Positions 6,001 through 33,600 of a stretch of DNA of 64,000 nt are shown piece by piece. The DNA is taken from contig CALWHF010000005.1 in NCBI GenBank assembly GCA_944380305.1, forward strand, positions 54,113 to 118,112, given 5' to 3'. Below the pieces are notes generated by a model. That model was not told the DNA's origin and made no database searches. It saw only the letters and a list, made by a program, of their open reading frames with translations. Numbering within the stretch: position 1 is the stretch's first letter; every line of letters begins with the position of its first letter. The position numbers and the translations under genes were made by a program. Origin of the DNA: an uncultured Christensenellaceae bacterium. GTDB taxonomy: Bacteria > Bacillota > Clostridia > Christensenellales > UBA3700.

Positions 6001-7549
6001 CCGCCGCCTGTTCGGTGCTTGTCAGGTACAGGTGCAAAAGGACGGTGGGGCGAAAATCGGCACCGAGGCAAACAAGATAGAGGCGGGCAAGCTGCTTAAA
6101 CGGGTTATCCTTGAAACGCAGCAGAACTCCCTCGCAACGGAACGCTCTGCTGCAATGCGTTCGGGCAATGAAATCATGCGCACGCTGACGATGTTCTCGG
6201 CGGACAGCATGAAAGTTATCGGGCGCGTCATTGACTCGGTGGGCGAGCTTTCCGCTTTGAAAGCAAGATTGCGCACGACGACAGACACGGAAAGCCGCAG
6301 CACTTTGCAGACGCAGATTAAGGCGGCGCGCAGAAATGTACGCAAGTCTTTGACCGCGCTTGCCACTTCCGCGCTGTTCATGGCAGCTATTGCGCAGCTC
6401 TTTAATTGGCTGTACAACAAGGACAAGGACGATGACGAAACGGCGGCGCAGCAGGTGCTTGTGGACTTTGTGGGGAATTTGCTCGGCGGGCTTCCGCTTG
6501 TGCGTGATTTTTACTCCCGCATTGCAGAGGGCTATTCTGTCGATAACTACGCTTATTCCGCACTTAATGACTTGCTTGACAGCGCAGTCAATCTGTTCGA
6601 TACCGTCGGTAGCCTTGTTTCGGGCGATGAGAGCAATTCAAAGCTGACCGCCCGCACCAAAAACCTTTTGTATGCACTCGGGCAGTTGACAGGTATTCCG
6701 ACGAGAAACCTCTACAACGTGTTTTATGGGCTCACAAAGCGGATCAGTCCGACGACGGCGTATAAAATCGACGAGGCGTTCTATGCGAAAAACTATGTAA
6801 CCGACCTCAACAAGGCGATTGAGAGCGACGATACGGACATGATCGCCATGCTCACGAGCATGATTTTCGGCGAGAGAATGGGGAATACGACCATGAGCGA
6901 CGCCGTGCGCAACAAGTTCGTTGACCTGTACTCGAAAGGCTATTCCGTGCTGCCCCGCAGCATAGGCGACACGATTACCTATGGAGGAGTAGAGATTCCG
7001 CTGACGGACGAAGAATACAGCCGTTTCAGAGCGATTTATGCGCAGTCCATGAAAGACATTGAAAAAATGGTGAATAGTGGCACGTTCAGCGTACTCTCGG
7101 AGGAAATGCAGGCAAAAGCCATAAAGCAGGTGTACGACGCATATTATTATGACGCGCTCTCCGATTTGGTGGGCGTGGACGAACGCACGACGATAGGCGA
7201 GCTGTCTGAATGGATAGACATGAGCAAGCTCTCCGTTGTGTTCACAGGGCTTTCCGATATAGAGTCGGACAAGAACTCAAACGGCGAGACGATTGCGGGC
7301 TCAAAGAAAAAGAACACGGTCAAGTACCTGCTCGGGCAAAACCTTTCAGACGGCGAGCGGCTGCTGATCCTTTTCTATCGCGGATATTCCATTCAGGACG
7401 GCGATTATAAGGGGTACACGGCAAAGCGTGCAAAGCGCATACTGTTGCAGTACATCTTGAAGCTGAACGGGACGCAGGCGGAAAAGGCTGCGCTTGCCGA
7501 AAAATGCGGGTTTACCGTCCGAAACGGTAGAATTATCAGAGATTTTTAG
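2..7549 (+). CDS. Phage large polyvalent virion protein (5' end outside window)
   Basis: The frame is open from base 2, so the gene starts left of the window; the TTG at 47 is only the first possible start and serves as residue 1 for numbering (2,500 residues from there). The opening residues (NYNYALRSDEV, FKDHG) resemble the PBECR nuclease family of phage polyvalent proteins. Residues 358-362 are HEVQH, a zinc-metallopeptidase HExxH motif followed by an EGFAGGSS segment, as in zincin-like polyvalent domains. Residues 788-818 (YHGS ... GAGFYFAT) match the ADP-ribosyltransferase fold of polyvalent proteins. Around 1070 is a ParB-like HEGRHRMAAL motif. The remainder is helical, with a hydrophobic segment near 2101-2125. 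Such proteins are packaged and ejected with phage DNA to protect it or alter the host; that role is inferred from the family. It lies upstream of scaffold and capsid genes, as expected. Confidence 0.8.
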   Translation: MEEQTGLNLENYNYALRSDEVRKIFKDHGTVGTEAPRGQRPVTEADFLAIPDILDGATSISLSEKKYNGQPAIAFSKVSGNERTTVVAVVSGKHLDLRVQTEYIGIKKGTLATLSGEQAPNNTPKASRGTDSTNSISQNAENVNSESQKGKKFALAGETSETANLSLLDRAKQLQAAGEDSETIRRETGWFVGYDNQWRYEIDDSAATLVEKPAFENHSTEDGSYRTAKLGDIMHHEELYAAYPFLKDVTVILQETETGVDGSAFAEDGQIVLAQRLFTRTSKEYQKYLENRQPEIKRIEQTPEYREYNRFYTDESLQETLSAEEWLAQEEAARNKFFASELGKRYHELMWGKPNVATTELGWSDKAKSVLMHEVQHLIQAHEGFAGGSSDTYWYNRLLKQYRSEAGTAREKFLKLRIEAAPELQQAMYDMEDTLNRLDVSTSSIARAYDNAARYAQNDNQRDILWDYTQAYSKLADFYKNGRKYADDMYRNTAGEIEARDVSSRLEMTAEQRLETRPDIDRKRVYFSDRLGETANRIERGIEPSENMRYALPDDKTVDFLNTQQTVTVYRAMQVIDGKLYPPMAARVKNADGSRELVMSSELGRWEQADERPELIRKGNKFTLDKANGSSIEAAYNPYFHTSRSPLNDQFSSAYKRDNLVIVEGEVPASELTSGYRAQYAKDAVGEIKWHSGPVSSKLPKSKERKVILSRWFKPVRIVPDAEVAQTIAEMLNGENIEIPYKVVTPSLLKELEKRGVAINYGNNSRYALAENDSDGAALSQEQREYFKNSKVIDENGRLRVAYHGSPNSFYTFDRNRIGKGNDQFGAGFYFATNEEASRHYGDNIYKTYLNITKPIVIDRTTDGGDLFDVKITQKQAYEILKRHPLIYDPESSPLGDMFEEYWEVGAKDYMIREAAKNFNSIGLLDSDYLAYRDYPNELHEAIRDVLGYDGVEVRFDNTGDRFYVAWFENQIKLTTNKQPTRDADIRFALSDSVVNVDSANETAAWTSERVTDLIDRYGATNPRYTQAYATWINPADFVKATTVNQTRRNQIYDEAGNLDIDALSRETQTPYLTVDYETMRIVGHEGRHRMAALAKAGVKRVAVAIRFTENSLSRYDARIMDGEHKLKGQTFSSWDADTQRVRTRTSHNSAAVGTLVPINAAYSAQLSEFTSERGVRFALDSSEDGNAQPRGNYSVGQRARFAANNTGMRVYTKAEAAEVINSIIEERLVFEEIGMQGELRGKDRQAVIDYLFQKLNTVKEGYRGGVALKIADFMIEHTVLTDMYADSNGEVSEAMRRLSVLRRYMHKIDLRHIQGEIQYRFDRKNSINLVWGAKEGGIAPDTLPQLLADEGIFIDAVNEADCFLQMVEMYEDARAAVNNATEQVMLSTYGDARTIKNLRQQIARDVLNAYEQKGRKSKYAKLVEKYTKQIAELKQRLRESNANNRLINSIVDQAQKMRDLKLGTFQNATQYDTEIFRSSIEKLGKIKFRGNFNIAGTRKIMADLRTWYTKDNPLLADTYEQGIADMLDEVANGKTNNYTKRELQSIRNIMAYFTNYVEHFNKVYRQGRWVDAVPEATRYIDILHRNEELKSSWFMRKVGTSYLQTFGDPMSVMRRMDRYESGFYTEIFTELRDSKIDAEIAKMQLMEEYEAFLKKNRKYPAQATKETVEYRGVEIPRMSLISLYMTLKRQHAQAGLAENGFGFWNAQDQRVRVDGFAKGITEESELRAAAVEEQARIAELLTETDKEYIAILEKGYQEAGRLKADRDIQRLGFTNATEDYYYPIRRGNIAKNVDSAEMQQELDRISNASFNKDTVRGAKQELFIESADVVFNRHVRGVVQYAYISPAIETYNKLYNLDIAGTPNKPVSVSTESANVWKQGNDYFKKLITDIQGISPVSSEGRAVLSFIRGSYAKFQLGANPKVWVTQLSSLFASSSLLDASSITRGMTVSAKDVDTYCPLAKLRAQDNTAAMAQGVLDKVGRISNVLMAPIGKMDRFVVRRLFGACQVQVQKDGGAKIGTEANKIEAGKLLKRVILETQQNSLATERSAAMRSGNEIMRTLTMFSADSMKVIGRVIDSVGELSALKARLRTTTDTESRSTLQTQIKAARRNVRKSLTALATSALFMAAIAQLFNWLYNKDKDDDETAAQQVLVDFVGNLLGGLPLVRDFYSRIAEGYSVDNYAYSALNDLLDSAVNLFDTVGSLVSGDESNSKLTARTKNLLYALGQLTGIPTRNLYNVFYGLTKRISPTTAYKIDEAFYAKNYVTDLNKAIESDDTDMIAMLTSMIFGERMGNTTMSDAVRNKFVDLYSKGYSVLPRSIGDTITYGGVEIPLTDEEYSRFRAIYAQSMKDIEKMVNSGTFSVLSEEMQAKAIKQVYDAYYYDALSDLVGVDERTTIGELSEWIDMSKLSVVFTGLSDIESDKNSNGETIAGSKKKNTVKYLLGQNLSDGERLLILFYRGYSIQDGDYKGYTAKRAKRILLQYILKLNGTQAEKAALAEKCGFTVRNGRIIRDF

Positions 7550-15818: not shown

Positions 15819-16649
15819 ATGCCAAGCACAACTCTTAACTTGGGACGAGTAAAAGGCTCCATGTGGTACACGGGAACGGCGGACAGCAATGTTGACATCG
15901 CCTCCGCGCTGACCTCCGCGGGCTATACACCTATCAAGCTCGATATGTACCTGAATACGAGCAACGGCAACGTCTATCAGTATGCGCCCGTGGACGACGG
16001 GCTGCAATGGACGCTGAAAGGAAACTTGCGCGGCGCAAAAGGCGAGGGCTTTCAGATCAAAAAGACCTACGCAAGCGTATCTGCAATGAATGCGGGATAT
16101 GCAACCGACGGGCTTCCTGTCGGCAGCTTCGTCATGATTTCAAGCAACGTCGAGGATCCCGACAACGCAAAACTCTACGTCAAAGGCGAGACCGCCTATT
16201 CGTTCGTTACGGACTTTTCGGGCGCGCAGGGCGTCAAGGGTGAAACGGGCGATAAGGGCGACAAGGGCGACGCAGGAACTGCCGCAACAGTTCAGGTCGG
16301 CACGGTAACGACGGGAGCCGCAGGCTCGCAGGCGTCCGTTACGAACGCGGGCAGCGCGAACGCCGCCGTCCTGAACTTCTCTATCCCCAAAGGCGACAAG
16401 GGCGACAAAGGGGACAAGGGCGATACGGGCGACGCTGCAACGATTCAGGTCGGAACGGTTACATCGGGTGCGGCAGGAAGTCAGCCGCAGGTAACGAACG
16501 GTGGTACGGCACAGGCGGTCGTCCTCAACTTTGTTATTCCGAAAGGGGACAAAGGAGACAAGGGCGATACGGGAGACAAAGGAGATGACGGCAAAACTCC
16601 GTCGTTCTCTGTGAATGCGAACGGCGAGCTCATCGCTACGTTCGAGTAA
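15819..16649 (+). CDS. Collagen-like tail-fibre protein
   Basis: 276 residues from ATG 15819 behind AAGGAGG. The N-terminus (LNLGRVKGSMWYTG) closely resembles that of the DGR target gene downstream, suggesting a shared virion-attachment module. Three blocks of G-x-y triplets (GVKGETGDKGDKGDAG, GDKGDKGDKGDTG, GDKGDTGDKGDDG) alternate with two near-identical beta segments of about 40 residues (VQVGTVTTGAAGSQ; IQVGTVTSGAAGSQ). Collagen-like triplets form rigid trimers in phage fibres. The DNA of the two beta units is itself repeated and could recombine. Confidence 0.75.
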   Translation: MPSTTLNLGRVKGSMWYTGTADSNVDIASALTSAGYTPIKLDMYLNTSNGNVYQYAPVDDGLQWTLKGNLRGAKGEGFQIKKTYASVSAMNAGYATDGLPVGSFVMISSNVEDPDNAKLYVKGETAYSFVTDFSGAQGVKGETGDKGDKGDAGTAATVQVGTVTTGAAGSQASVTNAGSANAAVLNFSIPKGDKGDKGDKGDTGDAATIQVGTVTSGAAGSQPQVTNGGTAQAVVLNFVIPKGDKGDKGDTGDKGDDGKTPSFSVNANGELIATFE

Positions 16650-16661
16650 GGAGGTACAACT

Positions 16662-17723
16662 ATGTCAGAGGTAAATCTTGGGCGCGTGCAGGGTGGCGGG
16701 ATATTCTATTCCACGGCGAGCTCGGGCACGAGCATTGCAAAATCGACGCTTACACCGACGGGGCTTGCGCCGCTTGTCGGAGATTGCGTCGTGTTCCCAA
16801 ACGGAGACCTGCGCAAAATCACCGCGGTAAGCGGCACGAACGTAACGTGTGGGAGCGTTTCCGCGAACTTCAAGGGCGACAAGGGCGATACGGGCACGAC
16901 AAGCTCGATTGTCAAAACCGCCGCGGAATGGGAGAGCCAAAACCCCGTTCTCGGCGCGGGTGTGTTCGGGTACGATTCCACAAATAAAATAATCAAAGCG
17001 GGTGACGGAACAACGGCGTGGAAAACATTGCCTATATTGCTTTCGACCGATTTCAGCTTTGAAAAAGCAAGCTGGTCGGATATTGCTGCGCTGTCAGAGA
17101 GCGGCAGCGCAGATAAATATTTCTCTGTTGGCGACGAAAAGACGATCTCTCTTACGACGGGCGAGCAGGTTACGCTTGTCATTCTCGGCTTCGACCACGA
17201 CGACCTCACGGGCGGCGGCAAAGCGGGTATGACTATCGGTATGAAAAACCTGCTTGCAACGACCTACCGCATGAATGCGACGGCTACAAACGAGGGTGGT
17301 TGGGACGAGAGCGAAATGCGCACCTCCACAATGGCAACTCTGCTCTCGCAGCTTCCGTCCGACTTGCAGGGCGTGATTAAGCAGGTCAATAAGAAAGCGA
17401 CGGCAGGAGGTGCGAGCACGAGCATTACAACGTCTGCCGACAAACTTTGGTTGCTTGCAGAAGTCGAGGTTGACGGTACGACATCGGCAGGATATGCAGA
17501 CGAGGGAGAACAGTACGAATATTGGAAAACAGTTAAAGACGGTACAGTCGCTGCCGACAGGAGAAAGTATTTATCTAACGGCAGCGGTTCCGCGGGCGGC
17601 TGGTGGCTGCGTTCCCCGAGTGTCAGCTACTCTGCGAACTTTCGCGCCTTCACCTCGACGGGCTACGTCAACTACTACAACGCGAACTACACGCGCGGCG
17701 TGTCTTTCGGCTTTTGCGTTTAA
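16662..17723 (+). CDS. DGR target: tip receptor-binding protein with variable C-terminus
   Basis: 353 residues from ATG 16662 behind AAGGAGG. It has an N-terminal VNLGRVQGG attachment module like that of the collagen-like fibre, then a short GDKGDTG triplet stretch near residue 70. The C-terminal domain from about 150 ends in WWLRSPSVSYSANF ... GVSFGFC, the signature of DUF6273/formylglycine-enzyme-like C-type lectin folds used as DGR variable proteins. Residues 308-352 are encoded by the variable repeat. Eleven residues differ from the template-encoded version, mostly Asn to Tyr, Gly, Ala, Ser or Thr. The product should bind a host receptor at the tail tip, with the retroelement diversifying it. 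Confidence 0.92.
   Translation: MSEVNLGRVQGGGIFYSTASSGTSIAKSTLTPTGLAPLVGDCVVFPNGDLRKITAVSGTNVTCGSVSANFKGDKGDTGTTSSIVKTAAEWESQNPVLGAGVFGYDSTNKIIKAGDGTTAWKTLPILLSTDFSFEKASWSDIAALSESGSADKYFSVGDEKTISLTTGEQVTLVILGFDHDDLTGGGKAGMTIGMKNLLATTYRMNATATNEGGWDESEMRTSTMATLLSQLPSDLQGVIKQVNKKATAGGASTSITTSADKLWLLAEVEVDGTTSAGYADEGEQYEYWKTVKDGTVAADRRKYLSNGSGSAGGWWLRSPSVSYSANFRAFTSTGYVNYYNANYTRGVSFGFCV
17584..17717 (+). repeat. DGR variable repeat (VR)
   Basis: 134 bp, aligned without gaps to the template repeat at 18560-18693. The 15 mismatches lie at 17595, 17596, 17598, 17599, 17620, 17628, 17634, 17646, 17647, 17653, 17660, 17664, 17673, 17676 and 17688. Each is an A in the template (8 to G, 5 to T, 2 to C). 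The last 29 bp are identical and nearly free of A, as expected of an initiation-of-homing end. The repeat ends two codons before the target gene stop. Confidence 0.97.
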
Positions 17724-17739
17724 TCTATTATCGCGCATG

Positions 17740-17763
17740 TCCGCGCCCTTGTATGGGCGCGGA
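17740..17763 (+). promoter_or_regulatory. VR-proximal hairpin (candidate DGR cruciform)
   Basis: TCCGCGCCC, loop TTGTAT, GGGCGCGGA: a perfect 9-bp stem that starts 22 bases after the VR end. It is not followed by T residues and so is unlikely to be a terminator. No equivalent follows the template repeat. Known DGRs such as that of phage BPP-1 carry a hairpin just beyond the VR that helps target recognition; the same role here is inferred. Confidence 0.7.
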
Positions 17764-17785
17764 AAGAATAACAAGGAGGTAACTC

Positions 17786-18097
17786 ATGACATACGGATTC
17801 AAAAACACGCCGATCATGCCGCGGTCAAGCGGGGACGGGCTCATCGCAACTGCGCTTGACGGCGTGGTCTATACCGAAAACAGCCGTCTGCACATCAAGG
17901 GGAACACGGCGCAATACGTCTATAAACCCGACGGCTCACCCGCAGGGTGGTATGCGCGTAACATCAAGACCTGCGATGACATTTATCTCGGCGTCGGCGC
18001 AAGCCCCACGATTGAGCTTGAAAACATCGTGATTCAAAACACGAGCGTATGGAGCGCAATCAAACAGGAGGAGCCCGAGGAAACCGAGGGGGAGTAA
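17786..18097 (+). CDS. Small phage protein between DGR target and Avd
   Basis: 103 residues from ATG 17786 behind AAGGAGG. It is beta-rich with a VVYTENSRLHIKGNTAQYVY strand pair, GASPTIELENIVIQNTSVW and an acidic tail (EEPEETEGE). No family is recognised. The position inside the DGR cassette is compatible with a small structural partner of the tip protein or a simple passenger. It is 6 bases from avd, so they are cotranslated. Confidence 0.5.
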   Translation: MTYGFKNTPIMPRSSGDGLIATALDGVVYTENSRLHIKGNTAQYVYKPDGSPAGWYARNIKTCDDIYLGVGASPTIELENIVIQNTSVWSAIKQEEPEETEGE

Positions 18098-18103
18098 AGC
18101 AGA

Positions 18104-18529
18104 ATGTCGGTACTTAAATCAAAGCGCGGGGAAAGCGCAATGCAATTTCTTGAAACCGCAAGGGAGCTTGAAGTGTACACCATACGTCAATGTGCGCGCT
18201 TCCCAAAACGGTTTATGTTCCTTATCACAAAGGACATCGTTGTGCTCTCAAAGGCTGTGTATAACAACGTCAAAGCCGCAAACAGCGTCTATCCGACAAA
18301 TGCGGCAGAGGTGCAGGTGCGGCGCAATTACCTTATCGCGGCAAATTGTGAGCTGCAATGCCTCATCTCGCAGCTTGACATCGCCCGCGAATTTGTGCGA
18401 AGTACCGCAGACAACAAAGCGATTCAAAGCGGAGTGTGGCAGAAGTGGATAGACCTTATAACGTCCGAGGCAAAGCTGATTTCGGCGTTGAGAAACAAGG
18501 ACAAAGAACGCTTCAAAGCTCTGCTATGA
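18104..18529 (+). CDS. avd: DGR accessory variability determinant (Avd)
   Basis: 141 residues from ATG 18104, with GGGGGAG about 9 bases upstream; ATG 18140 is an alternative giving 129 residues. The protein is almost all helix and rich in Arg/Lys: LETARELEVYTIRQCARFPKRF, YNNVKAANSV, VRRNYLIAANCELQCLISQLDIA and WIDLITSEAKLISALRNKD. This matches the four-helix-bundle Avd/S23-like family that forms a basic pentamer, binds the DGR RNA and works with the reverse transcriptase. The RFPKRF motif is typical of the first helix pair. The gene lies 30 bases upstream of the template repeat, the usual order. Confidence 0.88.
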   Translation: MSVLKSKRGESAMQFLETARELEVYTIRQCARFPKRFMFLITKDIVVLSKAVYNNVKAANSVYPTNAAEVQVRRNYLIAANCELQCLISQLDIAREFVRSTADNKAIQSGVWQKWIDLITSEAKLISALRNKDKERFKALL

Positions 18530-18559
18530 ATGCAGGTCATGCGCCGTAAATATTGTCGT

Positions 18560-18693
18560 GCGGTTCCGCGAACAACTGGTGGCTGCGTTCCCCGAATGTC
18601 AGCAACTCTACGAACTTTCGCAACTTCAACTCGACAGGCAACGTCAACAACAACAACGCGAACAACACGCGCGGCGTGTCTTTCGGCTTTTGC
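18560..18693 (+). repeat. DGR template repeat (TR)
   Basis: 134 bp in the gap between avd and the reverse transcriptase, with 33 adenines. Read in the frame of the target gene it is dominated by AAC codons (for example four in a row at 18646-18657), the typical DGR template design that lets adenine mutagenesis reach many residues but not stop codons. The 216 bases between its end and the reverse transcriptase start would form the 3' spacer of the template RNA, which in studied DGRs is needed for priming. Confidence 0.97.
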
Positions 18694-18908
18694 AACACGA
18701 TATACTCGACAAAGTAACCTCTACGGTGAAATCAATGTATTTGCAAAAGGGGCGCATGACCTTTCCGTAAGGATAAATAAATACCCCGATGTAGTCGATC
18801 GGACGCTTCTTGCATTGCCGCTTATCGTGGTACGGCGGTTTAATGGTCGGTACTACGGGCAATCGGAACTCCACGACGATAAACAGGTTGTACGGGGTAA
18901 TACGTCAA

Positions 18909-20045
18909 ATGAACAGCAAAGAACGGCATGAGGCGCGGTATCAGCGCAGGAAAATGAAACGCCTGCTGCGCAAGCGGCAGAAAGAGGCGAAAAACGGAGA
19001 CTTTGGCAAGGTGTTTACTTTCGATAATCTCTACACGGCATTCAGAAAGTGCTGCCTCGGTGTCGGTTGGAAAGCGAGCACGCAACGATTCAAGGCGAAC
19101 GCGCTGCAAAACGTCAACGACATCTACCGCTCTTTGCATAACGGTACATATAAGAGCCGCGGTTTCTATGAGTTCGACATCGTGGAACGCGGCAAGGAAC
19201 GGCACATAAAAAGCGTGCATATCTCCGAACGAGTCGTGCAGCGGTGTTTGTGCGACAATGCGCTTGTCCCCATGTTCAGCAGGTCGTTTATTTACGACAA
19301 CGGGGCGTGCATGGCAAATAAGGGAATAGATTTTGCGGTGAGGAGGCTTACTTGTCATTTGCAAAGATATTTCCGAAAACACGGTACGGACGGTTATGCG
19401 TTGGTGTTCGATTTCTCAAAGTATTTCGACAACATCGCGCACGAGCCGTTAAAGGCGACGGTCAGCAAGACGTTTTCCGATCCACGCATAGTGCAGCTCG
19501 TGAACGGCTTTATAGACGATTTCGGCAAGGTGGGGCTCGGGCTTGGCAGTCAGATTTCGCAGGTGTCCGCGCTTATGTACCCAAACAAGCTCGACCACTA
19601 CATCAAGGAGGAGCTGCGCATAAAGGCATACGGTCGGTACATGGACGACGGGTATCTTGTTCATGGGAGCAAAGAACATCTGCAATATTGTCTGCAAGAG
19701 ATCCGCCGCCTTTGCGCCGAATTGGGGATAAAGCTCAACGAAAAGAAAACGCAGATCGTCAAGCTGTCCCGCGGGCTGAACTTTTTGAAACGTCGCTTTA
19801 TTCTGACTGAAACGGGGAAAGTGATCGTTAAGCCCGCCCGCAAAGGCATAACGAAAATGAGGCGAAAACTACGGACTTTCAAGCGGTGGCTCGTTGCAGG
19901 CAAGATGAAAATGGAGGATATACGGACATCGTACACCTCTTGGAAAGGACACATGAAGCAATGTAACGCCTATCGGACGATTTTAAGCACGGACGCATTG
20001 TTTGACAGCTTATTCGCGGGTAGGGCGGCGGCATTTGACGGTTAA
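18909..20045 (+). CDS. DGR reverse transcriptase
   Basis: 378 residues from ATG 18909; the frame is open back to 18810 but the extra residues do not look like protein and the template RNA spacer lies there. It is a group-II-intron-like reverse transcriptase fold: VFDFSKYFDNI with catalytic D168, the DGR-specific LGSQISQ (212-218) in place of the usual QG motif, and YMDD (244-247) with D246 and D247. The N-terminus is very basic (RYQRRKMKRLLRKRQK). It should copy the TR RNA with errors at adenines and, with Avd, deliver the cDNA to the VR. Length is slightly above that of BPP-1 Brt (about 330). Confidence 0.95.
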   Translation: MNSKERHEARYQRRKMKRLLRKRQKEAKNGDFGKVFTFDNLYTAFRKCCLGVGWKASTQRFKANALQNVNDIYRSLHNGTYKSRGFYEFDIVERGKERHIKSVHISERVVQRCLCDNALVPMFSRSFIYDNGACMANKGIDFAVRRLTCHLQRYFRKHGTDGYALVFDFSKYFDNIAHEPLKATVSKTFSDPRIVQLVNGFIDDFGKVGLGLGSQISQVSALMYPNKLDHYIKEELRIKAYGRYMDDGYLVHGSKEHLQYCLQEIRRLCAELGIKLNEKKTQIVKLSRGLNFLKRRFILTETGKVIVKPARKGITKMRRKLRTFKRWLVAGKMKMEDIRTSYTSWKGHMKQCNAYRTILSTDALFDSLFAGRAAAFDG

Positions 20046-20056
20046 GGAGGTATGCA

Positions 20057-20395
20057 ATGAATGCGTCAATCGCAAAGGCGCGAGCACTTGTTTGTGCCTG
20101 CGCGGAAAAACAAAAAGAGAACGGGATCGTCGTCGGCACCGTGGTAGAGATTTACAAAAATCTTGTCAGAGCCGATGAGTGCAAGTTGTCGGACGCCGCC
20201 GAACGCGAGGAGCGGCAACGCTTTCAGCGCGAGGCAATCGTCGGCTGCCGCGTCCTTGCGGGGCTGCTTGATAGTCTGTGCGACGAAGAAGCAAAGAAAA
20301 GCCTTTGCGAGCGAACAGCCGAAGTTCGCCGCTTGTCCGCAGCATGGCTGAATGCTGAAAAACGACAAACAGTTCAAAAAGGAGCAGGGAGATGA
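20057..20395 (+). CDS. Small helical phage protein, unknown
   Basis: 112 residues from ATG 20057 behind AAGGAGG, 11 bases after the reverse transcriptase stop. It is predicted all-helical and charged (AEREERQRFQREAIVGCRV; CDEEAKKSLCERTAEVRRL). No family is recognised. It overlaps the next start by 4 bases (ATGA), so translation is coupled. It may belong to the DGR transcription unit or simply to the phage late operon. Confidence 0.45.
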   Translation: MNASIAKARALVCACAEKQKENGIVVGTVVEIYKNLVRADECKLSDAAEREERQRFQREAIVGCRVLAGLLDSLCDEEAKKSLCERTAEVRRLSAAWLNAEKRQTVQKGAGR

Positions 20396-23240: not shown

Positions 23241-23368
23241 GAAAAATTTTTTTCTCGGTTTTACCGAGAACGTGCCTGCACGCATTGAGGACTTTCGATA
23301 AATGCTTGAAATCGGCTGAAAAGTGTGCTATAACAGAAAGACACTTTACACGAGAGGAGGAACGAAAG

Positions 23369-24394
23369 ATGAGCAGGGGAGTAAGATTCACCATTCGAGA
23401 AAAAGAGCGAGCTCTCAAAATGTGGCTCGGAGACCACGAGGACGTTCTCTGCGTGGCAAGGAAAGTGAAATGCACGGAGCAGACGTTGTATCGCTGGAAA
23501 AAGCGGTACGACGGCACGCGGGAGAGTTTGCAGAACAAGTCAAGCCGTCCGCATACTCCACACCCGAACGCACACACCAAAGAGGAGCAGGAATACATAC
23601 GAAGGCTCTTTGAGGAGCAGCCGAACATCAGTTACGCGGAGGCTCTCGGTATTTTGCGGCAAAAGTACGCCTATTCGAGGACGTACTACGGCTTTTACCG
23701 ATATGTCGTCAAGAGCGGCATTCGACCGAAAGAGCAACTCGAAAAGTACGAGCCGCAACCGTATGAAACGCCTGAAATGTTTGGTATCAAAATGCAAATG
23801 GACGTGAAGTACGTCCCCAAAGAGTGTTTCAGAGGAGCCGCGCAAGAACGCTATGAGGCAAGCGGCGCGAGATTCTATCAGTACACAATGATTGACGAAA
23901 CGACGCGCGAGCGGTTTTTATACCCTTATACCGAGGTGTCGGCGCGGGCGACGGCAGACTTCGTGAAACGCGCGATAGTGTACTTTGGGTATCTTCCGCA
24001 CATCATTCAGACGGACAACGGCGGCGAGTTTACGAACAGCAAGGGGTGCAAAAAAGTACACATCTTGGACGAGCTTCTCGGCAAGCTGCGGATCAAACAT
24101 CAGCTTATCCGACCTTATACGCCACGTCATAACGGGAAAGTGGAGAGATCACACCGCACCGACGGGGAGAACTTTTACAGGACTTTAACCTTTGAGACCT
24201 ATGACGAGCTCAAAGAAAAAATGCAGGAATGGAACATCAGGTACAACAACCGCCCGCACTCCTCATTGCGGAACATAGAGGGGAAAAGAGTGTGGTTTAC
24301 GCCGCTGCAAAAGAGAGCAGAGCTTATGACTGTTCTAAAAGCGGGGCAAACCGACAGCCCGCGGGTGCGGTTCATCAGACGGAAAGCTGCATAA
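23369..24394 (+). CDS. DDE transposase, IS481/rve type
   Basis: 341 residues from ATG 23369 behind GAGGAGGA; a longer frame to 23285 lacks a ribosome site. An N-terminal helix-turn-helix (ARKVKCTEQTLYRWKKRY) is followed by an integrase-core domain with the triad D145 (QMDVKY), D216 (QTDNGGEF) and E259 (NGKVERSH). The D216-E259 spacing, 42 residues, is longer than the usual 35 because of a KGCKKVHILDELLGKL insert. One frame encodes everything, as in IS481. I found no clear terminal inverted repeats, so it may be a degraded IS or a phage-adopted recombinase. It marks the right side of the phage block. Confidence 0.8.
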   Translation: MSRGVRFTIREKERALKMWLGDHEDVLCVARKVKCTEQTLYRWKKRYDGTRESLQNKSSRPHTPHPNAHTKEEQEYIRRLFEEQPNISYAEALGILRQKYAYSRTYYGFYRYVVKSGIRPKEQLEKYEPQPYETPEMFGIKMQMDVKYVPKECFRGAAQERYEASGARFYQYTMIDETTRERFLYPYTEVSARATADFVKRAIVYFGYLPHIIQTDNGGEFTNSKGCKKVHILDELLGKLRIKHQLIRPYTPRHNGKVERSHRTDGENFYRTLTFETYDELKEKMQEWNIRYNNRPHSSLRNIEGKRVWFTPLQKRAELMTVLKAGQTDSPRVRFIRRKAA

Positions 24395-24650: not shown

Positions 24651-27600
24651 ATGAGAACTGCTAAATTATCTAAAATAATAATATTCTCGGTTTGCATTCT
24701 GCTTGTCTTTGCCGTGACGGCGGCGTTGCTCTTCAGCGGCAGCGCGTCTTTGCCTGCCAAGGACAAAGTGATCGCGGACGCGGGAGAAGGAGCGGACGAA
24801 ATCGCGGGCGCATCGTATCCCGTATCGGCAGACGGCTATACGCACGGCAGTAATATCGGACGTACTACGTCGGGGACGAGCGTTGCCACGGCGGAGCAAT
24901 TCGTAACAGCCGTGAACAACAACGAAGATATCGTGATCAACGCGAGTGAGATTACGTTGTCTTCGTCGCAGGCGTTCAGCATTCAGAAAACATACAGCGG
25001 AACGATATACGGCAACGGAAACAAGATCAAATATTCAGGTCCTCATAGCAACAACAGTTGCACCGGTAATTATTCAAGCGATTCTTCGATTGGCGGTCTA
25101 ATTTCAGTTTTAAGCGGTAAAATTTACGATCTGAACGTTGAGTTTACCGGAGGACAGGCGGCATTTGCGATAACAAGCGGCGGAGGAATTATCAATGTCG
25201 GAGGCATAGTAGGATATTTGAACGGCGGCACTATCGAAAACTGCACTATGACGTTCTCGGGGAGTGGGATAAGGCTCGGTGCTGCCGCATGGTCGAGCTC
25301 TTACGGATCTTGGGCAAGTCCAAAGGATTCGTGGCCGTCAGTAGGTGCTGTCGCAGGCAAAATGGCGGGAGGAAGTACGATTAAAAACGTTACCGTTAAA
25401 TCGGCGGCAACCAGCAATTACATTGTTGCAGGTGTAGCCGCAAGAGAAAGCAGTACAAGTTCATTGTCTATCGATAATACGAAAGGAACCGCAAGTATGC
25501 TTGTTGGATATATTGATGGCGGATCTTCGACAGTAGATAATATCGTTATGGAAGGTAGTGTAACGATAAAGAGCTTTTACGGTTCGCTGCTCGGTATGTC
25601 AGCTTCAAGTGGAACGAACATTTCTACAACTAATTTTTATAATAAGCTGGCGGCAACCCTCGTAACTACAAACAATGGTAACGGGGCTGCGTATGTAAAA
25701 TATACCGGAAACGGTAGCGTATCCGTTACTAATATGTATAAATCGAGTAACGCTTACGACAGCAACGGAACATACGCGGGAACGATTACAGACCGTGTGA
25801 CCGTACCCAACGATCTCCCGTATTCCATATATTTCGACCCAAAGGCTGACAGCGACAGCACTGCAAGTTCTCTCGTAGTAGTCAAAACAGGCGTTACGGG
25901 CGGCGAAGGCTATTCGGCGACGATAACCAACGTAAAATCCACGCCTTACACTTATACCGATAATTATGCGTTCAATGAGGCAGGCAATACGGTAATATTC
26001 CGCAATCTTTCGACTACGGCGAGCGACTGGAGGGACAGCAAAGGAAATTTCGCCTGCACGATAAATATCGTTCAGGGTACGACACCTGTCGAAAAGCTCG
26101 ATCGCGTCAACAAGTGGGAGAGCAGTTATACGACAACGACTTCTTCTACGGGCACGGCGGTCGACAACGGTTCAAAACTCACGACGGCTATCAACAACAA
26201 TCAGAATATATATCTTACAAGCGATATAACAGATTTCAAAGGCTTTACGCACAAGGATGAATACACGGGCATTCTGGACGGTAACGGACACACGATATAT
26301 ATCGTCAGCGGAGCAGCTAACTCTGCCGATACGGTCGGCGGTCTGTTCAAGAGGCTGTCAGGTACGATAAAGAACGTACGCATAGTGCTATACAACAGTT
26401 ACGACAGGACTATCGGCACAGGAAAGATAGGCACGGGTATAGTCGCAGGCAACCTTTGCGGCGGCACCGTGGAAAACGTATATGTATATATACCCGACGG
26501 GGTTACGTTCGGTGCGGACGGCGGCACTACTTACGAATCTTATGTCGGTGCGGTCGCAGGACTTTCTGACGCAGGATGCACGATAAAAAACACCACCGTT
26601 CATCTGGACGGCAAGCTGCATCTGAACGGAACGTATGTATATCTTGCGGGTTTTGTCGGCAAGGGTTCTACAAGTGCTTCTCAGACGGAGTTCAATATGA
26701 CGAACAACGTGTTCAAAGGAAGCGGAAGTTTTGCAAGCGAGAAGAGCATATCGACAGAGCCGATATATCTTGCGGCAACGACAGTTTTGTTTGAGGCGGC
26801 TTCTTCGTCAAGCGCAACGATAAATATAGACGGCTTTGTCAACGCCTTCAAGGGCGGCACATCGAATCTGAACGATTACTCGATGTACGGTGTTTTGTCA
26901 AAGAACGACAACGGCAAGAATATGTCCAAGTGGACTAAGAATGTATCCAATGTATACGATTACGACAGTCCGTGGGCAGATATAAACAACAAGGGCACAG
27001 ATTCGACAGGAAACAATTATATCGACGTAACGAATAGCAGATCCACCGTATCGACTACGGTAGAGGGATCTTCGATAAAGGTGACCCCGTATTTCCCCGC
27101 AGACAGCAAGTACGACGGCAAGCTGGTGCTTGTCGCGGGAGACGGAAGCGTCAGCGTGCCAGAAGTTGCGTACAACGGCATAAGCGGCGAGACGGACGGC
27201 AACTACAAGGTGGTGACGGTTGCAAAGAACGATATAAGCGCGGGCAGCACAGTAACGCTTACCGAGCCCGTCATACCGGCAACCCCGATAGAGCCTCTCA
27301 ACGAGTGGGAAAACGGTTATGCCGTATCTTCCGACGTAGTACCCGAAGGATATACGGCGGTAGCGGACGGAACGCAGCTTGCAAACGCGATAGCGGCAAA
27401 CGAAAATATCTTCCTTACAGCCGACATAATGGATTATGTAGGTTTCAACGGCGCGAGCGAAACCGACAGCGGATATACGGGAATTTTCGACGGCAACGGA
27501 CACACGGTATATATAGTCAAGGCGAACACCGCTAGCAAACAGTATGTCGGCGGACTTTTCGGAAAATTAAAGGGCACGGTAAAGAACGTCAGGATAGTCG

Positions 27601-30600
27601 TTATGGCGAGTGTGGATCTGCCGAGCGCCGTTTACGTCGGAGCCGTAGCGGGTGCACTCGACGATAATGCAAGCGTCAGCAACGTCAACGTAAGTATCAA
27701 CAGCGGGGTGAGCTTGGTAATATCCTCTTCAAGCTCTAATGTCGGCGGTGCAGGAGCTATAGCGGGCGGTCTGATAAGCGGCTCCGGAGAGAAGGCAACC
27801 ATCAGCAATTCAACTGTTGTTCTCAACGGAACTTTGAAGGCAACAGCGCAATATACGTTTATCGCAGGCTTTGTCGGGCATCTGAACGGCGGAAGTATCG
27901 AATACACTAATCTTACGTTCAAAGGCACAGGAAAACTGGACGGCGTAGCTAATGCCGGAGAGGGCGTTCATACGGCAGGCGCAGGCGTTGTAGGCGGAGG
28001 CGTAAGCGCGGTGACCGTCAACGGCTTTATCAATTCGTTCAACGGCACGTTGTCAAGCGGCAGAAGCGCGTACGAAGTCGTAGTACGCAACAGCCAGTCT
28101 ACGAGTATTGATGTCAGCGTATCCAACGTCTATAAGTATGGGGAAATAACCACCTACAACGGTTCGATGGATTACGGTACGCCTGTTGAATGCGTTAAAT
28201 CGGAAATATCGACCACAGTCGCAAATACGCAGATACCCGTGACCCCGTATTTCCCCGCAGACAGCAAGTACGACGGCAAGCTGGTGCTTGTCGCGGGCGA
28301 CGGCACAAGCCCGTGTCCGACGGTAGTGTACGGTAGCACTCAGGGCAAGGCAAGCGGCAATTATATGGTCGTGACGGTGGCAAAGAGCGATATAAGTGCA
28401 GGTAGTACGGTTGAACTGCAGGAATTGTCTTATGTCAACGATCCGTCTCTGACGACGGACAGCAGCGAATACAGCGGCTCGCCGATAGACGTAACTCTCG
28501 GTCAGCTCGCGGCAGGAAGCGTTGTTCTTTCTGAGAGCGATTACGAGGTCACGGTGACGGCAAACGGCGGCAACGCGTCCGTGCAGGACGGCAAGCCCCT
28601 CACGGCAGGCGAGTACAACGTGACCGTGACGCTGAAGAACGGTTACAAGTTCTCGGACGATTCGACGAGCAAGACGCTGACGTTCACCGTCAATAAAAAA
28701 GTCATTACGATCGAGGGCGTGACCGCGGCTACGCGCGATTACGACGGCACAACCGACGTGACGCTTTCGGGAGGCAACCTCGCGGGCGTCGTCTCGGGCG
28801 ACGAGGCGGGAGTTAGGTTCAATCTCGCGGGATTGCTTTCGGACGCAAATGCGGGTGTCGACAAGACGGTGAAAACGAGTATTACGCTTTCGGGAGACAA
28901 GGCGGGCAATTACGAGCTTACGCAGCCCGAAGTCAAAGTTACCATATCTCCCAAGTCGGTAGAAGTGAGCTGGGCAGGCGATTCGTTCGTATACAGCGGC
29001 TCTGCGCAGGCTCCGACGGCTACGGCGACGGGAGTCGGACAGGACGGAAGCGTTAATATTATATTGACAATTAAGAACGCGCAGAGCGAAGTGCAGGCGG
29101 GCGGCGCGATCGATGCGGGCAGCTATACCGCAGAGGCGACGACCGACAACGGCAATTATACTCTGACGAATACTAGCAAAGCGTTCGTAATAACTCAAAA
29201 GGCGATAAGCGTCAGCGTGACCGTTACGGGCTGGACTTACGGAAATCCGGCAAACGCACCCGTCGTTGAGGGCAATGAGGGCAGCGGCAACGTTACCTAC
29301 CTCTATACGGGTCAGACCAACGGAGAACAGCCGTACAGCTCGGCAGACGCTCCGACCGAGGCGGGCACATACAAAGTGACCGTCACGATAGAGGCAACGC
29401 AGAATTACGAAGGCGGCAATGCCGAGAGCGCGGAATTCGTCATTGATAAAAAGCAACTCGCAAAGCCGACCGAGGATACCACGACGTATACTTACAACGG
29501 CTCGCAGCAGACCTATACACCCGCAGGTTTCGACGATCAGACGATGGATATAGCGGGCAACGTTCAGACAAACGCGAATGTATCGGGTTATCAGGTGACC
29601 GTCTCGCTCAAGGATACGAACAACTACGAGTGGGCAGACGCGACGGCGGATGAGGTTGAGTTTACGTTCGTGATAAACAAGGCGACGCTCACCGACGATA
29701 CTCAGGCTGTCGAAACGACTTATGACGGGCAAGAGCACGGTATTCAGATCGCTCTTGACGGATTCGTCAACGACGAGAATATGACGTCGGCAGGCGCAGT
29801 CGTCAGATACGGCACGCAGGAAGGAACGTACGGCGAAGGCAAGATCACTCTGAAGAATGCGGGTAGCACGACTGTTTATTACGAGGTCGCGTTCGCGAAC
29901 TACGCGACGGTTACGGGCAACAAGACCGTCACCGTCAACGCAAAGCAGGTCGCGGTGGTCTGGGACAACAAGACGCAGACCTATACGGGCGTTGCGCTCA
30001 AGCCGACGGCAACGGTTTCGGCGGCTGACATAGTCGTAGGCGACGTGGTAAACGTGACGGTAAAGACCACCAAGGACGGCTATGATGCGGACGCGATCGA
30101 CGTGGGTACATACGGAGCGGTCGCGACTGCCGACAACGCGAATTACGAGCTTACGGGAGCAGAGATAAGCGATTTCACGATCACGGCGGCGGACTTCGCG
30201 AGCGAGGTTCAGATAGAAAACTGGGTTTACGGAAACGGGGCGAGCACTCCGTCCGTGACCAATAATCCCGGCAGCGGCGCGGTCACATACAGATATTCGG
30301 GTACTGCAAACGACGGAACGGAGATCTCCGATTCCGAAAAGGCTCCCGACAAAGCGGGTTCGTACACGGTCACCGCGACGATAGCGGCGAGCGGAAACTA
30401 TGCGGAGAAAGTCGTCAGCGTCGGATTTACGGTTGAAAAGGCGACGGTCGACGTGCCTGAAGTAGAAGACAAGACTTATACGGGAGAAACGATAACGTCG
30501 GGTCTCACAGATACCGATAAATATACCGTGCAGGACACAGGCGGTATCGAAGTTAAAACATATACAGCGACTCTCACGCTCAAGGATAAAGACAACTACG

Positions 30601-33600
30601 CGTGGGCAATGGGCGACGACGACAACGACGGCGTGGTGACGGTAGAGTATCAGATCGTCGCGCAGGGCATGAACATCAACTCCTGGAAACAGGAGCCGTC
30701 GATGGAGGGCTGGACTTACGGCTCTTACGACGGGCAGGTCAACCAACCCGTTTACGAGGCGACGTACGGCCATGAAACGGCGAAGGTAACTTACCGTCTC
30801 AAGTCGGGTGAAGGAGATTTCGCGGAAGTAAGCGATCTTTCGACGCTCGGCGCGGGAGTTTATCAGATGAAGGTCAGCATAGAGGCTTACACCGATCCGG
30901 AAGGGGGTGAGAGCTATACCGCGCTTTCAAGAACGGTAGAATTTACCGTTGCCAAGGCGGCTATCAGCCCGACCGTCTCGATAGACGGCTGGACGTACGG
31001 CGAAGTCGCAAAGACCCCCGTGGTCGGCGGCAATACGGGTAACGGCGGCGTGACGTATTCGTACGAAGGAACGGGCGACACCGTATATCAGGCGAGTGCG
31101 AAAGCTCCGACCGATGCGGGCACATACAAGGTAGTAGCCACCGTTGAGGAGACGGCGAACTACCTCGGCAATACGGCTGAAAATACGTTCACGATAGCGC
31201 AGAAGGCGGCGACGGCGACAGTCAGTGTGCCGCAGAACGCGGTCTACAACGGCGCGGCACAGGTCGCGACCGTGGATTTCGAAGGACTCGTGAACGACGA
31301 CGTGCTGACCGCGACTCTGCTTTACAACGGAGAGGCTCAGGCGGTCAACGCGGGTACTTACGTCGTGACGGTGAGCGCGTTCGGCGGAGAAGGGGTCGAT
31401 AACTACGAGATCTCGCCCGTCGGAGACGGGATCTCGCTTAAGATCGCGCCCAAAGAACTCAAGTTCAGCGACTTCGACGTACTGCCCTACGCTCCCGATT
31501 TCGACGTCGTGTACGACGGAAAGCCGCACGGCGCGACGGTCAGCATAAAAGAGGGAGTGCTTTACGGCGACGACTCTCTGACCGTGACGGTGCTCTACGA
31601 CGGCAAGACGGATGAGCCCGTAAACGCGGGACTGTACGAGATGACGATAAGCGTATCGGGCAACGACAACTACGTCATGGGCAAGGACAACGGCGAGGAG
31701 ATAGAGATACTCAAAGCGACCGTACAGCTCCCGACGATAGCGAGCGCGCCGTACAGCGGCAGCTTGCAGACCGCGACGGTCGCAGAAAGCGATCTCTACA
31801 CGGTCACGCTCAACGGCGGCGGCACCGACGTGGGTCTCTACGACGTGACGCTGACTCTTGCGAACAAGGGAAATTACAAGTGGGCGAGCGGAGACGACGG
31901 AGAAACGGGAGTCGTGACGCTCAAGTTCGGGATAACCAAGGCGGTCAACGAATGGACTTCTTCTCCCGCTATCGAAGGCTGGACTTACGGCGACGAGGCG
32001 AAAGAGCCGACGGCTACCGCGAAGTTCGGCGACGTGACGTTCTCCTATACCACGGCAGACGGCACGCCTGTCGAGGGCAAACCGAGCGGCGCGGGCAGCT
32101 ACAAGCTCGTCGCGACCGTTGCGGGCACGGACAATTACGACGGACTGAGCACCGAAGTCGCATTCGAGATCGCGAAGAATAAAGTGGAGATACCGACTCT
32201 CGCGACCGCTACGTTCGGATACAACGGCGAAGAGCAGACGGTCAGCCTCGTTGAGACCGACGGCGTGACCCTCGGCGGCGAGACTTCGGGCACGGACGCG
32301 AAACAATATACCGCAAAGGCGATCCTCGCGGATAAGGCAAATACCGAGTGGGCAACGGGCGGCGTTGACGACGTCGATCTCATATGGAACATCACCGCAA
32401 AGAGCGTGACGCTCAAGGCGGAAGAGAGTGTAGAAAAGATCTATGACGGCGCGGCTTACGACTTCAGCGGATACATCGTGACGGGCGCAGACGCTTTCTA
32501 TGCACGCGACAACGTGACGGTAAACGTCGATGCGGGCAGTGTTTATATTCCCGGCAGCTACGCACTCAACGTCATTTACAGCGAAAACGCGAATTACAGC
32601 GTGACGGTCGCGTCCACCGATGCGAAACTGACGATAGGCAAGGCGACTCTGACGATCGAGGCTGCGGAAACGGAGAAGGAGTACAACGGCTCCGACATAA
32701 CGTTCGATTTCTCGATCAGGGGCGGCATTGTCGGAAACGACGAAGTCAATATCGGAAAAGTCAGCTACAAGAAGGGAGGCGCGGCGGCTACTCCCAACGC
32801 GATCGGCGCGTATGTTGCGGAATTCACGCTCGGCGGCGCGCAGGCTGAGTATTACGAAACGGGTACGGTCACAGTCAACGTCGTCGCTCCGACGACCGAG
32901 TGCCCCGAGAATATGTCTTCCTCAAACATCAAACTCCCCGACGGCAATACGGTGACATACGACGGCGAGGCGCACGAGGCGGTGCTCGAATACGAGAACC
33001 TCGAAGGCGACACGTCGACTTACGGTCTGGTTTACTACCTCGACGGCAATCCCGTGGACAGCCCGATAGGCGCAGGCGTGTACACCGTGAGAGTCTACAA
33101 GAACGACGAGATATATCTGATCGAAGGCGTTTCGGTGACTCTGACGATAAATCCCGCTACGCTTACCAAAGACGATATAAAGATCGGCGATACCGACTTT
33201 ACATACAGCGGCGCGTCCAACAAGGTTTCCGTCTCCGCAACGGGCGTCAAGGGCGAACCCGTTGAGTTAAAAGTGCTTTACAACGGTTCCGAAATCGCAC
33301 CGAAAGATGCCGGCTCCTATACTGTGACAGTCGTATCCGACAACGTTAATTACGTCGTGGCGGGAGACGTCAGCTACGGTATGACGGTCGCGAGAGCTTC
33401 GGTAACCACACCTCAGGCTAACGCGCTGACCTATGACGGAACCGAGCAGGTCGCTTTCGGCGAAGACAACAGATATACCCTCGGCGGTACAGTGGCGGCG
33501 ACCGACGTTTCGGCAGAAGGATACGTTGCGGTCTTCACGCTTGCAAGCGACAACTACAAGTGGGCGGAGGCAAGCGACGAGACTCAGCGCGTGATCAGCG

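Follow-up and report, generated by a model that had tools for sequence, protein, structure and literature searches.

Does the region from 16662 to 20045 of the window (the whole 64,000-nucleotide stretch of DNA that was analysed) hold a working diversity-generating retroelement (DGR), and how would such an element begin cDNA synthesis?

Parts of the cassette and its carrier

The protein genes and repeats were placed as follows.

16662..17723, forward strand: target gene, 353 aa; N-terminal half tail-fibre-like, C-terminal half DUF6273 ending in the variable repeat (VR)
17584..17717, forward strand: VR, target residues 309-352; differs from TR at 15 sites, each an A in TR
17740..17763, no strand assigned: hairpin or cruciform after VR; 9-bp stem, 6-nt loop, 22 nt past the VR end
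17786..18097, forward strand: ORF of 103 aa, lying between target and Avd; 22 fetched loci, including some duplicates, have homologues
18104..18529, forward strand: 141-aa accessory protein Avd; match to PHROG 3206 'Avd protein of DGR', 9.6e-13
18560..18693, forward strand: TR, 134 bp, ungapped against VR 17584-17717
18909..20045, forward strand: DGR-type reverse transcriptase (RT), 378 aa; RVT_1 1.1e-16, PHROG 1423 3.7e-98
20057..20395, forward strand: predicted four-helix protein, 112 aa; small gene directly after RT

The cassette is a complete DGR: its target, hairpin, Avd, TR and RT are all intact and follow the canonical order. The earlier note had named these defining parts, VR included, in this order and with open frames for target (16662-17723), Avd (18104-18529) and RT; all of them were found and are real, and what its list lacked was the match to an RNA family, together with two small genes. 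Tail-fibre PHROGs were matched at residues 82-172 of the target and DUF6273 in the target by Pfam (PF19789, 2.7e-14); the target sequence had no match in PDB at E <= 0.1, and for the variable domain, where a DGR target is expected to have a C-type-lectin-like fold, DUF6273 was the only match. VR forms the C-terminal end of the target and finishes two codons before the stop region. Stems of at least 7 bp were present 3' of VR in 79 of 90 loci selected as described below, versus 4.6% of random 75-nt stretches from the same loci. Avd homologues were present in 149 fetched loci (duplicates included); Avd (18104..18529) was without a Pfam match, and the 103-aa ORF (17786..18097) was without a Pfam or PHROG match.

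The best PDB profile match of the RT was the BPP-1 DGR RT (8ub7_A, 1.7e-35; next match, 5.2e-18), and the motifs LGSQ.SQ and YMDD were nearly invariant in 19 sequences. Its start is most likely ATG 18909 rather than TTG 18810 of the ORF listing, because the stretch 18700-18920 matches an RNA family and the proteins of most relatives open with MNS/MTS.ERRE at the corresponding point. The 112-aa predicted four-helix protein (20057-20395) may be Avd-like. An ORF at 18530-18931 (133 aa), which overlaps TR and the spacer, was rejected as a gene and taken as a chance ORF, because its frame contains stops inside the span in 23 of 24 relatives; L029 alone was comparably open (130 codons).

The earlier description of the carrier as a Clostridia phage held in part, in that a Clostridia host is plausible from relatives but the carrier is a prophage region of a bacterial contig (118 kb) rather than a free phage genome. 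A scan of the single candidate ORF for an integrase was negative, and the two flanks searched for attachment sites had no stretch longer than 13 bp in common, a length ascribed to chance. At the right edge there is an IS-type transposase. Other copies of TR or VR with up to 55 mismatches were not found on either strand of the window, and a search of the whole assembly for further repeat copies returned VR and TR alone.

Variation at TR adenines

Realignment reproduced the ungapped 134-bp match of VR and TR reported previously, with 119 identical and 15 differing sites, and likewise the restriction of the differences to TR adenines (15 of 33), with 0 of 101 non-A sites affected. TR A was replaced by G at 8 sites, T at 5 and C at 2. 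Given the composition of TR (33 A, 43 C, 31 G and 27 T), the chance of all 15 mismatches falling on A is 3.8e-11 (hypergeometric). A survey of 169 fetched loci yielded 142 with a TR/VR pair and 21 without, the remaining 6 being truncated; 123 pairs passed the filter (score >= 60, length >= 90 and A share >= 0.6), and 90 were left after removal of near duplicates. Pooled over these 90 loci, 1,406 of 1,503 TR/VR mismatches were at A, in a selection that itself demanded an A share of at least 0.6, the criterion that alone excluded L062, L148 and L176. A DNA pattern built from TR had no match in viral_contigs.

Because natural relatives of the target occur in their hundreds in public data (956 homologues at E <= 1e-60), the mutational spectrum can be read without experiment. 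Among 111 target proteins of the same length, 93-97% identical to the query, 110 distinct VRs were present. Mean heterozygosity was 0.72 at the 18 VR codons with A in the TR codon, 0.037 at the other 26 and 0.022 outside VR. Counting against a purely adenine-directed process, 24 of 1,998 A-codon residues in the 111 alleles, including some at positions 325 and 344, were beyond the reach of changing A alone, and the A-lacking codons 330 and 345 were moderately variable. This comparison, an allele check at the protein level, was positive, with neither a fixed VR nor variation spread over non-adenine positions, and by these alleles the target is diversified in nature. Relatives sharing a TR but differing in VR were looked for and found: L130, L132, L133 and L134 have identical TRs and identical 300-nt upstream flanks, and between any two of them the VRs differ at 18-26 of 39 A sites and nowhere else. 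Some other same-TR pairs of relatives had 1-3 non-A differences, which counts against. The closest RT relative, L042 (97% identity), begins 140 nt before RT, inside the spacer, and its genome had no match to the target-to-TR stretch; since this locus breaks off within the spacer, a TR of the lineage to which the window belongs has been seen only once.

An element once active in the lineage and silent in the present lysogen, with VR a frozen allele in a defective prophage, would agree with the single VR in one assembly, with an integrase and attachment repeats not having been found and with the transposase at the right edge; the intact target, Avd and RT frames and the distinct VRs in 110 of 111 near-identical targets make it unlikely. 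We regard the DGR as very probably active and otherwise ordinary, a cassette of a common kind. The same alleles, varying at A-bearing codons, support adenine-directed mutagenic retrohoming as the earlier note had read it, and we hold with high confidence that this complete DGR is likely rewriting the C terminus of a predicted prophage tail-fibre protein by that route.

The RT-2 RNA and the predicted TR:Sp duplex

Three features fall in or next to the spacer between TR and RT.

18687..18695, forward strand: TR tail, forming the 5' strand in the predicted TR:Sp duplex; perfect reverse complement of 18741-18749
18700..18920, forward strand: RT-2 RNA (RF03077), spacer (Sp) domain of the DGR RNA; full-length match, 122.5 bits (gathering cut-off, 40)
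18741..18749, forward strand: strand contributed by Sp to the predicted TR:Sp duplex and presumed to be the primer, from complementarity and covariation

RF03077 was the sole Rfam match in the window, also at an E-value threshold of 1 over 17500-20100, and RF03022 (Phage_DGR RNA) was not matched. The spacer RNA of the window was not unusually stable (z -0.15). Of the first 27 RT relatives, 26 carried RT-2; in 22 of 25 its start fell in the range from 6 nt before to 8 nt past the traced end of TR. When 299 genomes of the family of G498 were searched RNA-first, with RF03077 alone, 6 matches were obtained, in the central genome G498 and in L213-L217; all five of the latter lie just 5' of a DGR-type RT and 3' of an A-biased repeat pair. 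Four are base-for-base duplicates of loci fetched via RT (L213 = L076, L215 = L051, L216 = L071 and L217 = L107), and L214 alone was new. In 398 genomes of the phylum, one match beyond the window's own was obtained (L207; 37.3 bits, below the cut-off); it adjoins a DGR-like RT (37% identity), and no repeat pair was found in this 3.2-kb locus. Among the DGR phages L201 and L203-L206, none of the five had RT-2 over the cut-off, and RT-2 is therefore not universal to DGRs.

Rfam labels RF03077 just 'RT-2 RNA', without mention of DGRs, and its model is without the TR tail that pairs with RT-2 in our prediction. Weinberg 2017 reportedly described the family, and Handa 2025 is the paper on the BPP-1 RNP; our literature search found no paper linking RF03077 to DGRs, though either of these may make the link. 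RF03077 appears in a table of improved structures (PMC11701678), and a paper on a DGR phage has Weinberg 2017 among its references (PMC8143477).

The Sp strand (18741..18749) falls in a conserved stretch of RT-2. In an anchored test of 87 relatives, none of 5,000 permutations gave covariation of TR tail and Sp strands as strong as that observed, a result that is not a strict probability because the loci are mutually related. The test was devised after the raw sequences had been inspected, its register having been suggested by the pairing seen there. Loci without an anchor numbered 3 of 90 (L004, L072 and L166), and a few anchors are probably misplaced (e.g., L011, L028, L129, L149 and L175) and were retained in the counts. 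Since the design itself makes position 1 pair, and the second Sp base hardly varies, the slid-register control was restricted to positions 3-8. Scored without an anchor, local complementarity of TR tail and Sp did not exceed that of swapped controls (17.4 for own pairs against 17.1; Wilcoxon P = 0.36).

RT-2 could instead be a leader that controls RT expression and stands outside the retrohoming RNA; its match overlaps the RT start codon, and position alone fits both roles. The start of RT-2 at the TR end in most relatives, the covariation of its conserved stretch with the TR tail and the presence of Rfam's Phage_DGR RNA at the same place in BPP-1 nevertheless make a leader decidedly improbable. 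As part of the retrohoming RNA, RF03077 would gain a concrete role, and its pairing with TR likely primes cDNA synthesis as in phage BPP-1, an analogy drawn from covariation. Such a covarying duplex offers a sequence-only test of cDNA initiation in DGRs outside Bordetella.

Comparison with known DGRs and a proposed mechanism

The BPP-1 DGR (mtd, avd and brt) resembles that of the window in its order of target, Avd, TR, spacer and RT, in a tail receptor-binding target, in a folded spacer RNA and in the complementarity of its TR tail to Sp positions 48-54, over 7 bp of which one is G-U. Its TR/VR differences are likewise A-directed. The BPP-1 spacer matches RF03022 (104.7 bits) and not RF03077, whereas for the window the reverse holds; the window's element further departs from BPP-1 by DUF6273 in its target, by the additional ORF that separates target from Avd and by a second small gene, which follows RT. 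For BPP-1 it is described that bRT-Avd is recruited by the spacer in its folded form and that the cDNA is primed from an adenine within this spacer (PMC12875486).

By analogy, the TR-Sp transcript would bind RT and Avd, and the TR tail (18687-18695) would pair with Sp (18741-18749), so that the active site of RT is offered an RNA duplex. A nucleotide shortly past the duplex would then prime cDNA on TR, random bases being inserted opposite template A, and the cDNA would replace VR at a site marked by the hairpin and the common 3' end. An altered receptor-binding surface would result. The four-helix protein 3' of RT could act as an Avd-like accessory in this process. More broadly, we think it probable that RT-2 is the retrohoming RNA of a large Bacillota/Spirochaetes DGR clade; that the conserved and unpaired part of RT-2 supplies the primer strand in the TR-tail:Sp duplex, with the register kept by compensatory changes throughout the clade; that BPP-1 self-priming is a general DGR rule readable from sequence; and that some members have a second Avd-like protein. 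An ordinary duplication diverged by drift, for which the existence of two similar copies and nothing more speaks, is virtually impossible given that all 15 differences are at A of one copy and given the A-codon variation across 111 alleles, and it is already contradicted by the same-TR relatives that differ at A sites.

The Roseburia phage Shimadzu DGR (LR596903) has, like the window, an annotated tail fibre, Avd and RT (50.7% identical), RT-2 RNA in the spacer and 17 of 18 TR/VR mismatches at A; unlike the window, its annotation is without the 103-aa ORF between target and Avd. The Faecalibacterium phages Roos, FP_Brigit and FP_Toutatis carry DGR-type RTs with 32-35% identity to that of the window. 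FP_Brigit and FP_Toutatis differ from the window in having no RT-2 match over the cut-off, whereas Roos, like the window, has the RT-2 RNA (175.1 bits).

Layout of the retroelement and its carrier region

The earlier note had proposed a diversity-generating retroelement (DGR) from a 134-bp pair of template repeat (TR) and variable repeat (VR) and from the order of target, hairpin, Avd, TR and reverse transcriptase (RT); both the repeat pair and the order were found as claimed, and the window element is a complete DGR. VR and TR differed at 15 sites, all 15 adenines in TR (15 of 33 adenines; 0 of 101 C, G or T sites in the TR/VR alignment), and a search of the whole 1.94-Mb assembly turned up no third copy. 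The DGR itself is of a known kind; perhaps less expected by a specialist are the identity of the RT-2 RNA and the covarying duplex between TR and the spacer domain (Sp). The cassette comprises, in order:

16662-17723, target, predicted tail-fibre gene (353 aa), including VR at 17584-17717 (residues 309-352)
hairpin
17786-18097, 103-aa ORF
Avd, 141-aa ORF
18560-18693, TR
18700-18920, RT-2 RNA
RT, start codon probably ATG 18909
112-aa ORF

The C-terminal half of the target matched DUF6273 (PF19789, 2.7e-14) and its N-terminal segments were tail-fibre-like; Avd matched PHROG 3206 (9.6e-13). The RT carried RVT_1, its profile matching first the solved DGR RT of Bordetella phage BPP-1 (8ub7_A, 1.7e-35) and next a maturase (5.2e-18), and its motifs LGSQ.SQ and YMDD were almost invariant in 19 sequences. 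Collagen-like GXX runs were seen in the adjoining fibre protein (15819-16649), with a short run in the target too. The 103-aa ORF between target and Avd, for which a family match was absent, was kept in 22 fetched loci (duplicates counted) and occurred in a subclade with a longer VR-to-TR distance.

The cassette is carried by a prophage region, about 44 kb long, within a bacterial contig. Upstream of the cassette lay, in order, a major-head match, terminase and portal, recombination genes (RecT, SSB-like and YqaJ) and housekeeping genes (phosphoglycerate kinase, iron alcohol dehydrogenase and alanine racemase); on the right, a transposase was followed by repeat-rich large proteins and then an ABC transporter. 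Attachment sites were not found in the two flanks searched, nor an integrase in the one candidate ORF scanned for it, and the exact prophage ends were likewise not found.

47-7549, 2500-aa ORF upstream of the head gene, matching solely PHROGs of unknown function
23285-24394, IS-type transposase, integrase core (PF00665), right edge of the prophage region
24651-35627 (3658 aa) and 37675-44649 (2324 aa), very large ORFs right of the prophage, with MBG/YDG and Listeria-Bacteroides repeat domains
44669-50053 (1794 aa), very large ORF right of the prophage

The very large ORFs right of the prophage probably encode bacterial surface proteins. Hosts named in the records of RT relatives (best 80 of 136 loci) were mainly Clostridia and other Bacillota, and also Treponema and other Spirochaetes.

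Diversification in relatives

Evidence for recent diversification of the DGR in its close lineage was strong, in line with the earlier reading. At the DNA level, relatives were compared whose TR and 300-nt upstream flanks were identical, and the same TR was indeed found with different VRs: four loci (L130, L132, L133 and L134) differed pairwise at 18 to 26 of 39 A sites and at no other site, as did L142/L143 (17 of 36 A sites) and L159/L165 (20 of 37). Certain same-TR pairs had 1 to 3 non-A differences (L106/L115, 13 at A and 3 elsewhere), and duplicate records (L009/L010, L021/L022 and L124/L125) had none at all.

At the protein level, 956 target homologues were found at E <= 1e-60, and the best 120, which are the most similar ones and no random sample, yielded 111 alleles of exactly 353 aa after the query's own record and 8 targets of other lengths were left out. 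Among these alleles, 110 of 111 VR strings were distinct, and mean pairwise differences (2000 sampled pairs) were 14.1 in the 44 VR residues versus 6.6 in the other 309. Mean heterozygosity was 0.72 at the 18 VR codons with A in the TR codon, 0.037 at the other 26 and 0.022 outside VR, and 1974 of 1998 A-codon residues were reachable by A changes alone. Positions 322, 325 and 344 held residues outside the A-reachable set, and A-lacking codons 330 and 345 were moderately variable; such exceptions could stem from a TR that differs between strains.

RT-2 RNA and its predicted pairing with TR

The TR-RT spacer was filled by RT-2 RNA (RF03077, 122.5 bits), the sole Rfam family in the window. RT-2 was present in 26 of the first 27 RT relatives (the exception, L027, begins inside RT), in all 9 Spirochaete loci and likewise in Faecalibacterium phage Roos, and exceeded the cut-off in none of five other DGR phages (L201 and L203-L206); the BPP-1 spacer, used as a control, matched a different family, RF03022 ("Bacteriophage Diversity-Generating Retroelement RNA"). 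Relative to the traced TR end, the RT-2 start fell between 6 nt before and 8 nt after in 22 of 25 loci; in L016, L030 and L032 it lay 34 to 80 nt downstream of that end. When 299 genomes of the family of G498 were searched by RNA alone, 5 loci besides this central genome were over the cut-off, each with an A-biased repeat pair upstream and, immediately downstream, a DGR-type RT (41-57% identity); four (L076, L051, L071 and L107) were known earlier through RT, and L214 alone was new. This placement and the RNA-only search make it very probable that RT-2 is the spacer domain of the DGR RNA; neither the Rfam description line nor the literature searched states such a role.

The TR end CTTTTGCAA (18687-18695) and TTGCAAAAG (18741-18749), a stretch of Sp unpaired in the Rfam model, were exact reverse complements of each other. 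Both strands changed jointly in relatives, with TR reading, for instance, TTCTGTAA (L159), TTTTATAT (L014) or TTCCATAA (L162) and Sp the complement each time. Covariation was assessed over 8 positions in 87 of 90 loci, with a short motif as the anchor on either side and G-U counted as half. Mean own pairing was 6.17, versus 4.36 once TR tails had been exchanged among loci, and 0 of 5000 permutations reached the observed total; at least 6 of 8 pairs were Watson-Crick in 65 of the 87 loci (44 distinct TR strings). At positions 3-8 the fraction paired was 0.713 in this register and fell to 0.157-0.358 when the register was slid 1 to 6 nt either way. The single-sequence fold included the duplex, with unremarkable energy (z -0.15).

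In BPP-1, an internal spacer adenine primes cDNA within the TR 3' junction (PMC12875486). There, TR tail and Sp (positions 48-54) were complementary at best over 7 bp, one of them a G-U. The priming adenine is reportedly position 56 of the spacer, and cryo-EM reportedly revealed an RNA duplex at the priming site. By analogy, we infer that the window's TR:Sp duplex would have the same cDNA-priming role.

Other DGR loci among relatives

At L068 (7327-9220), a second bAvd-like protein, below the Pfam cut-off and with homologues in L072, L187, L188 and L191, lay downstream of the first DGR. In L068 another RT-like gene (368 aa, YVDD) came next, possibly making up two DGR units in tandem. The closest viral-contig relatives (L009, 3401-4516, and L010, 4001-5116; RT identity 70%), whose records are near-identical, had a stop codon in the RT frame past residue 44 and TR/VR differences still confined to A (12 of 12). 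The contig L042 (CASFTB010000016.1) of a Firmicutes MAG, whose RT is 97% identical, opens within the spacer, 140 nt ahead of RT; assembly breaks may tend to fall at DGR repeats.
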